Shown piece by piece: positions 7,706 to 12,340 of a stretch of DNA of 64,000 bases (position 1 is its first letter; every line of letters begins with the position of its first letter). Position numbers and translations under genes: made by a program. The notes beneath the pieces were generated by a model that made no database searches, had not been told where the DNA came from, and saw nothing but the letters and a program-made list of their open reading frames with translations. Source of the DNA: Cytophagaceae bacterium. GTDB taxonomy: Bacteria; Bacteroidota; Bacteroidia; Cytophagales; Cytophagaceae. The DNA lies in assembly GCA_025454925.1 (NCBI GenBank), contig JALONM010000007.1:1-64000 (forward strand), written 5' to 3'.

Positions 7706-10700
7706 ATGACCGTGAGCAAGAAATATCCTGAGCACAAAAATGTTGAATTGTCGCAAGTAAGCACCGAGATTTTAGACTTCTGGAAAAAGAATTCCATTTT
7801 CGAAAAGTCGATCTCTTCTCGCGAAGGCCAACCATCGTTTACATTTTTTGAAGGCCCACCTTCGGCCAATGGTACGCCTGGTATACACCACGTAATGGCG
7901 CGCACGGTGAAGGATATTTTTTGCCGTTATAAAACCTTAAAAGGCTTTCAGGTAAAGCGAAAAGGTGGCTGGGATACGCATGGACTGCCGGTAGAGCTTC
8001 AGGTAGAAAAAGAACTGGGCATTACCAAGGATGATATCGGTAAAAAAATATCGGTGGAAGAGTACAATCAGAAGTGTCGTGAAGCGGTGATGAAATATAA
8101 ATCACAGTGGGATGACTTAACTGAAAAGATGGGATATTGGGTGGACCTCGAACATCCTTACATTACGTTTGAAAACGATTACATAGAAACTTGCTGGTAC
8201 CTTTTAAAGCAACTGTACGAAAAAGGCTTGCTGTACAAAGGGTATACCATACAGCCTTATTCGCCGGCAGCCGGCACCGGACTCAGTTCTCATGAATTGA
8301 ACCAACCAGGCTGTTACCGCGATGTGAAAGACACGACGGTGGTAGCGCAATTTAAAGCCGTAGATTTTAATTCTCCGCAGGAAGGCAAGGTATATTTTCT
8401 GGCCTGGACTACTACTCCCTGGACGCTTCCTTCGAATGCGGCCCTTGCGGTAGGAGAAAAGATTGAGTACGCGCTGGTAAAAACGCTTAATCCATATACC
8501 CATCAGCCGGTGCAGGTGATTCTGGCCAAGGCCTTGCTTGGTAAGTATTTTCAGGAGAAAGGAAAAGACGGAGATTTTGACAGCTATCGTGCAGGTGATA
8601 AAGTTATTCCATGGACCGTGGTGGCAGAGTATAAAGGTGCCGAACTGGTTGGTAAGAAATACGAACAGCTGCTTCCGTATGTGCAGCCTGAAGCGCCTGC
8701 ATTTCGTGTAATTCCGGGGGATTTTGTAAGTACGGAAGACGGCACCGGTATTGTGCATATTGCGCCAACGTTTGGTGCCGATGATGCCCGGGTAGCCAAA
8801 GCCGCAGGCATTCCGGCAATACTGGTAGATGGTGAACCATTGGTTGACAAACGCGGCCGCTTTTTACCGCAGGTACAGGACGAAGTGTTTGGTTTGGGTG
8901 GTGAATTTGTAAAAGAAGAATATCTCAGCGACGCTGAAAAAGCGGAGGCCCTTGAGCTCCAAAAAGAAAAACTTGCAGGCATCATTGCCAAGCTCGATAA
9001 GTACATGAGTGTGGACGAGCGTATCGCATTAAAACTAAAGCTGGGTAACCAGGCTTTCAAAGTAGAAAAATACGAACACAGCTATCCTCATTGCTGGCGT
9101 ACTGACAAACCAGTGCTCTACTATCCGCTTGATTCGTGGTTCATACGCACGACGGCGCTGAAAGGAAGAATGTCGGAACTTAACAAAACCATTAACTGGA
9201 AACCGGAATCTACAGGCACCGGGCGCTTTGGGCATTGGCTCGAAAACCTGGTGGATTGGAATCTTTCTCGTTCCCGCTATTGGGGAACTCCACTACCCAT
9301 CTGGCGCACCGAAGACGCTTCGGAAGAACGATGCATAGGATCGGTGAGTGAGCTGAAAGAAGAAATTAAAAAGTCGCTTGCGCTGCTCGATTCTTTCGAT
9401 CTGCCGGCCGAGCGGAAAGCACAGGCGCGTGAATACATGAGTGAGGCCTTGAAAAAAGGCATACACGACTTACACCGTCCTTATGTGGATTACATTATTT
9501 TGGTTTCGCCGGATGGCAAACCGATGTTCCGGGAGAGCGACCTGATCGACGTTTGGTTTGACTCGGGTGCCATGCCTTACGCACAATGGCACTACATGGG
9601 CGATTCGAAGGCACTTCCTTTTAACGGAGGAAATACGCCCGCTTTCCCTGCTGATTTTATTTCGGAAGGGGTAGACCAAACCCGAGGATGGTTCTTTACG
9701 CTGCATGCCTTATCTACGTTGTTGTTTGATTCGGTGGCGTTTAAAAACGTGGTGTCTACCGGATTGGTACTGGATAAAAATGGAGTGAAAATGTCCAAGC
9801 GTTTGGGCAATGTGATTAATCCATTTGAAACGATTGGTCAATATGGTCCCGATGCCACGCGTTGGTATATGATCGGAAATGCTCCTCCCTGGGATAATCT
9901 CAAATTTAACCTCGATGGCGTAACGGAAGTGCTTAGACGCTTTTTCGGCACTTTGCAGAATACCTATTCCTTCTTTGCTTTGTACGCAAACCTGGATGGC
10001 TTTACCTATGCAGAAAAAGATGTACCGTTGGAAAAGCGCACAGAGAGCGACCGCTGGATATTGTCGCGCCTGCATTCGCTGATACAACTGACGGATAAAG
10101 CCTACGCGGACTATGACGCAACCGTGGCCGTTCGGGCAATTGAAAGTTTTGTGTGCGACGACCTCAGCAATTGGTATGTGCGCTTGAATCGTAAACGTTT
10201 TTGGAAAGGGGAATACAGTAGCGATAAAATGGCTGCGTATCAAACCTTATATACGTGTTTAGAAACCGTAGCGAAACTGGCATCGCCGGTGGCACCGTTT
10301 TATACCGAACGTCTTTTCCAGGACTTAAATGGCGTAAGCAAAAAGGATCGTTCTGCCTCAATACACCTGGCAGATATGCCGGTTGCCGATACCCGCTGCA
10401 TCGACACGGATCTGGAGCAGCGCATGGCATACGCACAGCAATTGACTTCCCTGATTCACTCGCTGCGGAAAGGAAACAGCCTGCGCGTGCGACAGCCACT
10501 CTCCAAAATGCTGGTGCCTGTTCTGAACGAGAATTTCCGCAAACAAATTGCCGCCGTTCAGGATCTTATTTTGTCGGAGGTAAACATCAAAGTGCTGGAG
10601 TTTGTTGATGATTCTTCGGGTATATTAGTGAAAAAAGTTAAACCTAATTTCAAAAAATTAGGAAAAGAATACGGTGCTAAACTTAAAGAAGTAGGAGCGA

Positions 10701-11656
10701 TTATCCAGGCATTTACCCAGGCCGATATTCTTACTCTCGAGCGTGAAGGCCGCTTCCAGACGAAGTTGTCGGATGGAACACCTGTTTCGCTGAGCCCGGA
10801 AGATGTAGAGATTTCTTTTGAAGATATTCCCGGATGGTTGGTAGCCAGTGCCGGTTCCCTCACGGTAGCCCTGGACATCACCTTAACGGAGGAGTTGAAG
10901 CAGGAAGGTGTGGCCCGCGATTTCGTAAACCGCATACAGAACCTGCGGAAAGACATGGGGCTGGAGGTGCAAGACAAAATCGAATTGCAAGTAGTGCGTC
11001 ATTCCGAATCGGTATCGCAAGCCTTGATTCAACACCAGGCTTATATTTGCGCCGAAGTACAAGCGCTTTCCCTCGAACTTGTAAACGATTCGCGCACCGC
11101 GGACCTCATTGAAATGGAAGATTTTCAATTGGCAGTGGATGTGCAAGTAATAAAAACAGCTCCTGCTCCTGGCAAAAAATCGGTTACGAAAAAAGAAAGC
11201 TCGTTGGCAACCAAGAAGAGTAAGGCTAAAACTCCTTCCAAAAGCAAGTACAAAACAGCGAGCTCCAGTCAAAAGAAAACAGTCAAAAAAGCTACGAAAT
11301 CCGCTAGCAAGGCGGGTTCTGTTACGAAAAAGAAAACCGAGGCTAAAAAGAAAACGGCAGTAAAAAAAGCAAGCGTAGCGAAAAAGCAAGCGGCAAAACC
11401 TATTAAGAAAGCAGGCAAAAAAACGCAAGTAGAAAAAGGCAAGAAAAAAATAGCGAGTCCAGTAAAAAAGAAAAGCACTAAAAAAGTGGTTGCCAAAAAA
11501 AGTACTACCAAAAAAGTAGCCGCAAAAAAAGTAAGGACTAAGAAGGCAACAACAGTAAAAAAGAAATCCAATACAAAAACTGTTTCTAAAAAAGCAGTGG
11601 CCAGGACTACCGTTAAAAAATCCACGAAGAAAAAAACAGCGAAAAAAGTTAACTAA
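7706..11656 (+). CDS. ileS: Isoleucyl-tRNA synthetase (type 2) with lysine-rich C-terminal tail
   Basis: IleRS charges tRNA-Ile with isoleucine in the cytosol. The ATG at 7706 is preferred over an in-frame ATG at 7556, because homologues begin just before the GPPSANGTPGIHHVMA signature and the upstream 50 residues look non-coding. Visible are the HIGH-region variant GIHHVMA, the CP1 editing block TTTPWTLPSNAAL, DVWFDSGA, GVDQTRGWFFTLH and KMSKRLGN (KMSKR variant). These fit the eukaryote-like type 2 enzymes associated with mupirocin tolerance. The core ends near residue 1150. A further ~165 residues are almost only K, A, T, S and V with repeated KKxxxKK and AKK units, like histone H1 or AlgP tails. 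lspA follows 60 bp later. Confidence 0.95.
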   Translation: MTVSKKYPEHKNVELSQVSTEILDFWKKNSIFEKSISSREGQPSFTFFEGPPSANGTPGIHHVMARTVKDIFCRYKTLKGFQVKRKGGWDTHGLPVELQVEKELGITKDDIGKKISVEEYNQKCREAVMKYKSQWDDLTEKMGYWVDLEHPYITFENDYIETCWYLLKQLYEKGLLYKGYTIQPYSPAAGTGLSSHELNQPGCYRDVKDTTVVAQFKAVDFNSPQEGKVYFLAWTTTPWTLPSNAALAVGEKIEYALVKTLNPYTHQPVQVILAKALLGKYFQEKGKDGDFDSYRAGDKVIPWTVVAEYKGAELVGKKYEQLLPYVQPEAPAFRVIPGDFVSTEDGTGIVHIAPTFGADDARVAKAAGIPAILVDGEPLVDKRGRFLPQVQDEVFGLGGEFVKEEYLSDAEKAEALELQKEKLAGIIAKLDKYMSVDERIALKLKLGNQAFKVEKYEHSYPHCWRTDKPVLYYPLDSWFIRTTALKGRMSELNKTINWKPESTGTGRFGHWLENLVDWNLSRSRYWGTPLPIWRTEDASEERCIGSVSELKEEIKKSLALLDSFDLPAERKAQAREYMSEALKKGIHDLHRPYVDYIILVSPDGKPMFRESDLIDVWFDSGAMPYAQWHYMGDSKALPFNGGNTPAFPADFISEGVDQTRGWFFTLHALSTLLFDSVAFKNVVSTGLVLDKNGVKMSKRLGNVINPFETIGQYGPDATRWYMIGNAPPWDNLKFNLDGVTEVLRRFFGTLQNTYSFFALYANLDGFTYAEKDVPLEKRTESDRWILSRLHSLIQLTDKAYADYDATVAVRAIESFVCDDLSNWYVRLNRKRFWKGEYSSDKMAAYQTLYTCLETVAKLASPVAPFYTERLFQDLNGVSKKDRSASIHLADMPVADTRCIDTDLEQRMAYAQQLTSLIHSLRKGNSLRVRQPLSKMLVPVLNENFRKQIAAVQDLILSEVNIKVLEFVDDSSGILVKKVKPNFKKLGKEYGAKLKEVGAIIQAFTQADILTLEREGRFQTKLSDGTPVSLSPEDVEISFEDIPGWLVASAGSLTVALDITLTEELKQEGVARDFVNRIQNLRKDMGLEVQDKIELQVVRHSESVSQALIQHQAYICAEVQALSLELVNDSRTADLIEMEDFQLAVDVQVIKTAPAPGKKSVTKKESSLATKKSKAKTPSKSKYKTASSSQKKTVKKATKSASKAGSVTKKKTEAKKKTAVKKASVAKKQAAKPIKKAGKKTQVEKGKKKIASPVKKKSTKKVVAKKSTTKKVAAKKVRTKKATTVKKKSNTKTVSKKAVARTTVKKSTKKKTAKKVN

Positions 11657-11716: not shown

Positions 11717-12340
11717 ATGAAATACACCAAATATTACCTTCTTACCATTGCCTTGATTCTAATTGACCAGGTAATCAAATTAGCCACCTATTATCATTTC
11801 CAAATTGAGGGCAATTACCAGCCTGTATTTGGAGATTGGTTTAAGCTCTACTACATCACCAATCCTGGTATGGCCTTCGGTATTGAATTAGGAGGATCCT
11901 ACGGTAAAATTGCGCTCAGCGTATTCCGTTTATTTGCGATGGGAGGAATTGCCTGGTATTTGTACGCACTTGCCAAACGCAATATGCATCCGGGTTTACT
12001 TTGGTGTGTGGCAGCCATTTTGGGCGGTGCCATGGGCAATGTGGTGGATAGCACCTTTTATGGAGTTACGCTGGATCTCGTGGCAGAAGGCGCTCCTACC
12101 CCATGGTTTCATGGCAAAGTAATAGACATGTTTTATTTCGACATTTGCAATTGCTATATCCCGAGTTGGGTGCCTTTTTTAGGTGGTGACTATTATCCTC
12201 TTTGGCCTATTTTTAACTTTGCGGATGCTTCTATTTTTGTCAGCGTTTGCATCATTCTGATTTATCAGAAAAAGTTTTTCGCAGAAAAAGAAGAGGAAAA
12301 AAATGTAGAGAAAGAGTCTGGACTTGCTGAAAATTCTTAA
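11717..12340 (+). CDS. lspA: Lipoprotein signal peptidase (signal peptidase II)
   Basis: LspA cleaves signal peptides of diacylglyceryl-modified prolipoproteins in the inner membrane. The ATG at 11717 (MKYTKYYLLT) places the first membrane segment at the N-terminus; an upstream in-frame start at 11690 adds nine unlikely residues. Four hydrophobic segments are visible. The catalytic aspartates are D111 in GNVVDSTF and D170 in NFADASI. The long periplasmic loop between them (about 50 residues) is typical of Bacteroidota. The charged KEEEKN tail is probably cytosolic. The stop codon lies inside a TTAA that also contains the stop of the convergent radical SAM gene. Confidence 0.93.
   Translation: MKYTKYYLLTIALILIDQVIKLATYYHFQIEGNYQPVFGDWFKLYYITNPGMAFGIELGGSYGKIALSVFRLFAMGGIAWYLYALAKRNMHPGLLWCVAAILGGAMGNVVDSTFYGVTLDLVAEGAPTPWFHGKVIDMFYFDICNCYIPSWVPFLGGDYYPLWPIFNFADASIFVSVCIILIYQKKFFAEKEEEKNVEKESGLAENS

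Follow-up and report, generated by a model that had tools for sequence, protein, structure and literature searches.

A lysine-rich, H1-like C-terminal tail on a bacterial isoleucyl-tRNA synthetase

The isoleucyl-tRNA synthetase (IleRS) gene of this Cytophagaceae genome encodes a lysine-rich C-terminal tail, which is a real feature of the assembly and, most likely, a genuine part of the enzyme. On balance, the tail is probably a gain on the genome's own branch, forming a disordered polybasic arm that would bind polyanions; it is one of several H1-like extensions in the genome and very unlikely to be a remnant of dksA. What stands out most is that a single genome holds a whole group of tailed proteins.

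The ileS reading frame and the character of its tail

The ileS frame starts at ATG 7706 and stops at TAA 11654-11656, with TTG 7556 likewise in the open frame. The product was identified as IleRS by the equivalog model TIGR00392, whose cut-off of 621.4 it clearly exceeds (Table 1), and its closest sequence matches in the PDB are isoleucine--tRNA ligases such as 8c8w. Pfam places tRNA-synt_1 at residues 22-733, Anticodon_1 at 782-934 and DUF5915 at 952-1148. The frame then runs unbroken through the tail. When the tail DNA was put through 20,000 dinucleotide shuffles, only 1 came out free of in-frame stops (mean 8.4), and chance is no explanation for the open frame. The initial annotation had described an H1-like tail of about 165 residues fused to IleRS. 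The continuous frame of 166 residues bears this out, except for the start given, nucleotide 11155, which falls one base too soon and in another frame (nine stops); the tail begins at nucleotide 11156. Its further statement that lspA comes directly after ileS is correct, as the open reading frame and its PF01252 match place lspA next to ileS. ARAGORN found no tRNA or tmRNA genes in the window (the whole stretch analysed, positions 1-64000).

Table 1. Features of the ileS region in the window and lysine-rich proteins elsewhere in the same genome (G008 is a near relative)
Feature	Position	Strand	Basis or source
ileS, isoleucyl-tRNA synthetase, 1316 aa + stop	7706..11656	+	ORF; TIGR00392, 957 bits
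IleRS body, residues 1-1150: class I catalytic core, anticodon-binding domain, C-terminal DUF5915	7706..11155	+	Pfam; ends of 17 family relatives' frames
Lysine-rich H1-like C-terminal tail, residues 1151-1316	11156..11653	+	Frame, Pfam, composition
lspA, signal peptidase II, directly 3' of ileS; alternative start GTG 11690	11720..12340	+	Pfam PF01252, ORF
RsfS (PF02410), 167-residue H1-like C-terminal tail, 56 Lys	L186:1051-1989, contig C81		Same genome
PurA (PF00709), adenylosuccinate synthetase, 72-residue H1-like tail, 26 Lys	L271:1-1542, contig C28		Same genome
TopA, DNA topoisomerase I, 66-residue C-terminal tail, 24 Lys	L253:3-2528, contig C2		Same genome
Free HC2-like Lys/Ala repeat protein, ~131 residues	L307:1252-1662, contig C84		Same genome; counterpart L278 in G008
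362-aa protein, ~200-residue lysine-rich N-terminus	L180:1480-2568, contig C40		Same genome; C-terminal part common to G008 (L282)
Ribosomal protein uL22 (PF00237), short K/E-rich C-terminal tail	L259:220-747, contig C6		Same genome

The tail is an irregular mixture of Lys (62 residues), Thr (23), Ala (23), Ser (19) and Val (16), with two Arg, three acidic residues and five Pro; Ile, Leu, Phe, Trp, Met and Tyr together make up 4 of its 166 residues. It carries a net charge of +61, compared with -18 for the IleRS body. The calculated mass of IleRS is 148 kDa with the tail and 130 kDa without it. Lysine density peaks at 26 per 60 residues, and no other frame of at least 80 codons in the window reaches 15 Lys in 60. 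A sample of 20 stretches of 20 kb (400 kb) from the same genome holds 623 frames of at least 100 aa, with a maximum of 16 Lys per 60. No Pfam family matches the tail by itself at E<=1, neither the PF01258 zinc finger nor HC2 (PF07382).

Several sequence criteria bear on what such a segment might bind. As a polybasic low-complexity segment outside the synthetase core, the tail has the form of an appended tRNA-binding domain. It also has the lysine pattern associated with lysine polyphosphate modification (KPM; at least three consecutive Lys and about nine Lys in 20 residues), with up to 10 Lys in 20 and a longest run of three. A PASK motif, which takes at least 75% D/E/S/K in 20 residues including a Lys, is absent from the tail, where the highest value is 70%.

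Two explanations would detach the tail from the synthetase. The first, that an assembly or sequencing error fused a separate lysine-rich gene to ileS, is scarcely credible. The genome is a draft in 135 contigs, and no genome of the same genus was among those returned for comparison. However, the tail is found 11 kb into a contig of 122 kb, lspA is at its usual place, and the ratio of AAA to AAG lysine codons carries on from the body (66/24) into the tail (46/16). The second is that the tail doubles as a separate H1-like protein, released by cleavage or made by internal initiation at the in-frame ATG 11114, 14 codons 5' of the tail. The same Met is present in tail-less relatives and therefore belongs to IleRS, and a separate product is highly improbable.

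Distribution of the tail and the dksA question

Among the genomes examined, the tail is unique to this one. A search of the family with a C-terminal IleRS query matched 18 of 19 genomes (G013 gave no match), and none except this genome matched beyond query position 205 of 365. The frames of 17 family relatives stop near residue 1148, having run 196-198 residues from the position that aligns with residue 952, compared with 365 residues here, and their final 60 residues hold at most eight Lys. The same query matched 377 of 390 genomes in the order and 389 of 395 in the phylum. Among the matches listed (about the best 150 of each), only this genome crosses the tail without a stop, and the others that extend past about position 203 carry at least one. 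When 30 order and phylum rows with unusually long frames were read (5 + 25), all 30 stopped at the end of the body without a tail. A tail should give a higher score, which suggests that genomes beyond the matches listed are tail-less as well. Among 80 named Bacteroidota loci, 79 of them parsable, the final 100 residues of IleRS never hold over 11 Lys (contig ends truncate L040 and L051).

In a maximum-likelihood tree built from 41 IleRS bodies, the window genome (G000) groups with G008 (96/89), which entered as a partial fragment of 906 residues, and then with G003 (100/99); the surrounding family includes Cytophaga aurantiaca. Both nearest relatives have a plain IleRS end followed by lspA (loci L144 and L154). 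Because all 17 readable family relatives, these two included, are without the tail, it appears to have been gained on the genome's own last branch, after the split from the nearest sampled relatives.

The initial annotation suggested a source for the tail, namely the lysine-rich N-terminus of a former dksA gene between ileS and lspA, fused to ileS with loss of the DksA domain. The premise is well founded. In a tblastn census of gene order at 110 loci (80 named Bacteroidota and 30 from this genome, its family and its order), dksA is next to ileS at 33 of the 80 named loci, or 35 with two near contig ends. The remaining named loci have lspA next without dksA (21), lspA farther away (4), neither gene (18) or a contig end (4, two of which show a dksA start). 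The lysine-rich N-terminus ascribed to such dksA genes was seen in L054, L058, L081, L085 and L095. At two of these, the Chitinophaga loci L081 and L085, the lysine-rich dksA frame opens in frame just past the ileS stop, so that a single stop separates the genes. A stop-loss fusion of ileS and dksA is plausible in other lineages; no actual fusion was seen among the loci read. Rows G634, G580 and G464 also have lysine-rich sequence soon after the ileS stop, as candidate dksA genes.

The local evidence points the other way. None of the 30 loci from this genome, its family and its order has dksA at ileS: lspA is next at 18, neither gene lies within about 1.5 kb at 11, and at one the contig stops short. 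Another count, made at 18 family loci that overlap with that set and covering 1.5 kb 3' of ileS, likewise found no dksA; lspA is next at 17, and G009 has neither. The family relatives read thus show neither a tail nor a separate dksA at this locus, whereas the initial annotation had named the presence of both in all relatives as grounds for rejecting its proposal. In this genome the single PF01258 match is a complete DksA of 285 aa with its own lysine-rich N-terminus, encoded directly before scpB. Judged by motif, scpB stands beside dksA at 21 of 30 dksA loci read and at 15 of 16 in the family, where only one short copy departs from the pattern; it belongs to G002, which has another copy that precedes scpB. 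Most likely, dksA had already left ileS in this lineage by the time the tail appeared, so that some other source for the tail would be needed.

Comparison of the tail with DksA N-termini, proposed at the outset as a check, gives a similar answer. Scores against plain codon shuffles look high: in 300 shuffles, the observed protein score was reached 0 times for the DksA extension of G010, 5 times for that of G007, 3 times for the L180 protein and 8 times for RsfS, and the DNA score twice for G010 and once for G007. More demanding protein local-score tests used 500 shuffles with either Lys positions fixed or Lys runs permuted as tokens. The DksA extension of this genome is no closer to the tail than such shuffles (96 fixed, 71 permuted), and a reversed target scores higher. 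Corresponding counts for other DksA extensions are 70 and 16 for G010, 114 and 176 for G007, 295 and 354 for G008, 483 and 483 for G003, and 190 and 266 for Chitinophaga. With an intact dksA elsewhere, none at ileS in the family and no Pfam match in the tail, a dksA remnant is very unlikely. An independent nucleic-acid-binding extension, the other alternative raised in the initial annotation, fits better, with the binding itself putative.

The tail could also have been copied from another lysine-rich gene of this genome, such as those for the HC2-like protein, RsfS or TopA. DNA local scores exceed most codon shuffles (reached in 5 of 300 for the HC2-like gene and 11 of 300 for TopA), the longest exact DNA match is 16 bases with RsfS, equalled in 6 of 300 shuffles, and the RsfS protein score is reached in 28 of 500 shuffles with Lys runs permuted. 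With Lys positions fixed, however, the counts rise to 250 of 500 for the HC2-like protein, 402 for TopA, 190 for PurA and 36 for RsfS, which makes copying improbable; among so many comparisons, a few low values are to be expected. Permuting the runs gave 78, 346 and 59 for the first three. Among the remaining comparisons, the L180 protein gave 136 fixed and 186 permuted, RsfS of G008 452 and 182, and the HC2-like protein of G008 268 and 138. Searched against its own genome, the tail returned only itself, perhaps since low-complexity matches are discounted. The likeness between the tail and other lysine-rich extensions would seem to reflect shared composition, and homology is not claimed.

Similar extensions in the same genome

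Other H1-like extensions were sought in this genome with DNA patterns for KK[AV]xKK and KK[ASTP]xKK. The patterns gave 25 and 76 hits, compared with 58 and 92 for reversed-pattern controls. Because these counts fall below the controls, a hit alone is meaningless, and the analysis kept only those that fall within lysine-rich frames. The first pattern's 25 hits were all read, and of the 76 of the second, 30 loci and 18 further stretches, so the proteins in Table 1 represent a lower bound. The same search in G008 and G003 had 30 of 43 hits read as loci.

The extensions of RsfS, PurA, TopA, DksA, the L180 protein and the HC2-like protein reach 21-28 Lys per 60 residues, compared with the sampled maximum of 16. 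The HC2-like protein scores 32.2 bits against PF07382, under the cut-off of 40, and ends in FVSSLLS in both this genome and G008. The L180 protein has no significant match in Pfam, NCBIfam or the PDB; its C-terminus looks Gre-like by eye. One further frame, L262, holds 21 Lys in 60.

The tails differ in how they are shared. RsfS also bears a lysine-rich tail, though a shorter one, in G003, G008, G009 and G013. PurA turned up in 36 of 39 genomes; the motif expressions for PurA and RsfS missed some rows, and the PurA of G036 was left out because of masked letters. In the 21 relatives whose PurA end was read (19 + 2), G003 and G008 included, the PurA tail is absent; where the end was judged by the GPxR motif, no more than 13 residues come after it. 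Two unrelated enzymes, IleRS and PurA, bear tails that are absent from both nearest relatives, and the RsfS tail of this genome is longer than theirs. By frame length, a long DksA N-terminus is suggested for 12 of 19 family genomes, and nine proved lysine-rich on reading.

This patchiness is also what non-adaptive growth would produce, in which A-rich lysine codons slip or recombine into a tolerated low-complexity tail and the enzyme would be unaffected by its removal. Such growth is possible, with a likelihood that is appreciable but clearly the lesser. The scattered long DksA frames, the varying length of the RsfS tail among G000, G003, G008, G009 and G013, and the restriction of the IleRS and PurA tails to G000 among those read are consistent with it. 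So are the internal repeats of the IleRS tail, three of them according to TRF, all short and weak and 14-18 bases in period, and a report that the length of Chlamydia Hc2 varies via repeat duplication and deletion (PMC2848022). Fresh slippage should leave purer repeats, however, whereas the tail mixes AAA and AAG at the ratio of the body, and its longest run of A is seven. Comparable stretches are also rare in the sampled proteome. Counting against a selected arm, neither the position nor the sequence of the tails is conserved across relatives, as neutral low-complexity growth also predicts.

Possible roles and known systems

In the preferred reading, a gained polybasic arm, the tail would be disordered and would bind polyanions electrostatically and without sequence specificity, be they tRNA, rRNA, DNA or polyphosphate. 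Such an arm may raise the local concentration of tRNA at IleRS. Alternatively, it may tether IleRS to the ribosome or nucleoid. A tail of this kind also occurs on the metabolic enzyme PurA, which makes a tRNA-specific role less attractive and argues for a general polyanion arm. Either use might benefit the cell.

RsfS, DksA, IleRS and PurA all have links with starvation and the stringent response. A speculative and rather unlikely extension of the arm hypothesis is that H1-like arms let a shared polyanion, such as polyphosphate or the compacted nucleoid, gather or release these four jointly at nutrient depletion. Co-localisation would then be coded by composition, with no conserved domain. It was unexpected that unrelated enzymes of one genome, PurA included, have H1-like tails that are missing in close relatives. 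With such a set one can ask whether tails multiply through chance or serve to assemble proteins on a common polyanion, and a bacterial IleRS with a lysine-rich arm offers a clean way to learn what these arms do, by comparing the enzyme with its tail and without it.

Literature on bacterial proteins provides several precedents for polyanion binding. In AlgP, the H1-like domain is described as acting on both DNA and polyphosphate granules (PMC9239181). Of four lysine-rich Pseudomonas proteins assayed in one study, two bound polyphosphate, both with nine Lys in 20 and runs of four (PMC12077175), and seven E. coli polyphosphate binders have been linked with ribosome biogenesis and translation (PMC12345225). 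Low-complexity regions are reported to be frequent in bacterial translation proteins and, in ribosomal proteins, mostly C-terminal (PMC6821194). The open-access literature searched yielded no relevant report of a lysine-rich extension on bacterial IleRS or on DksA.

Among known systems, the nearest synthetase parallels are eukaryotic. Lysine-rich extensions of human LysRS and yeast synthetases are described as binding tRNA non-specifically (PMC6213541, PMC3306390) and as occurring at either end of the protein (PMC6213541); the lysine-rich appendages in these sources are eukaryotic. The RID of human LysRS, the extension of yeast AspRS and the insertion of yeast GlyRS1 resemble the tail as polybasic additions outside the synthetase core. 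Those segments are N-terminal or internal, whereas this one is C-terminal, 166 residues long and bacterial, with tRNA binding putative. Against a tRNA arm, the C-termini of human IleRS and LeuRS are described as appended domains for protein-protein contacts and complex assembly (PMC4394549). The ValRS model NF011492 (PRK14900) aligns as far as residue 1244, inside the tail, and profile position 1036 of 1044, although its score of 174.7 is far under the cut-off of 1783 and the model is for ValRS, not IleRS. This alignment suggests a ValRS group with a lysine-rich C-terminus.

Other comparisons concern composition. Bacteroidota DksA N-termini are lysine-rich like the tail; this genome encodes one, and in other lineages such a gene directly follows ileS. 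They are N-terminal rather than C-terminal, with no convincing homology past composition. HC2 (PF07382) resembles the tail in overall composition, although the tail has no Pfam match. The KPAA domain of Pseudomonas AlgP and PhaF is of similar length (154-195 aa), and the AlgP protein has a net charge of +55 (PMC9239181), near that of the tail; AlgP uses regular KPAA repeats, in contrast to the irregular sequence seen here.

Streptomyces TopA is reported to depend on its H1-like repeats for remaining on DNA, with similar repeats in HrdB, Ku and HupS (PMC7398561). As in the tail, the TopA repeats of Streptomyces and other actinobacteria are C-terminal, degenerate and lysine-rich and sit on a housekeeping enzyme; the carriers here, in Bacteroidota, include IleRS, RsfS and PurA. 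By analogy, the tail most likely works like this TopA or like the lysine-rich appendages of eukaryotic synthetases. The H1-like polybasic arm is thus a known kind, and what is new is its placement on a bacterial IleRS.
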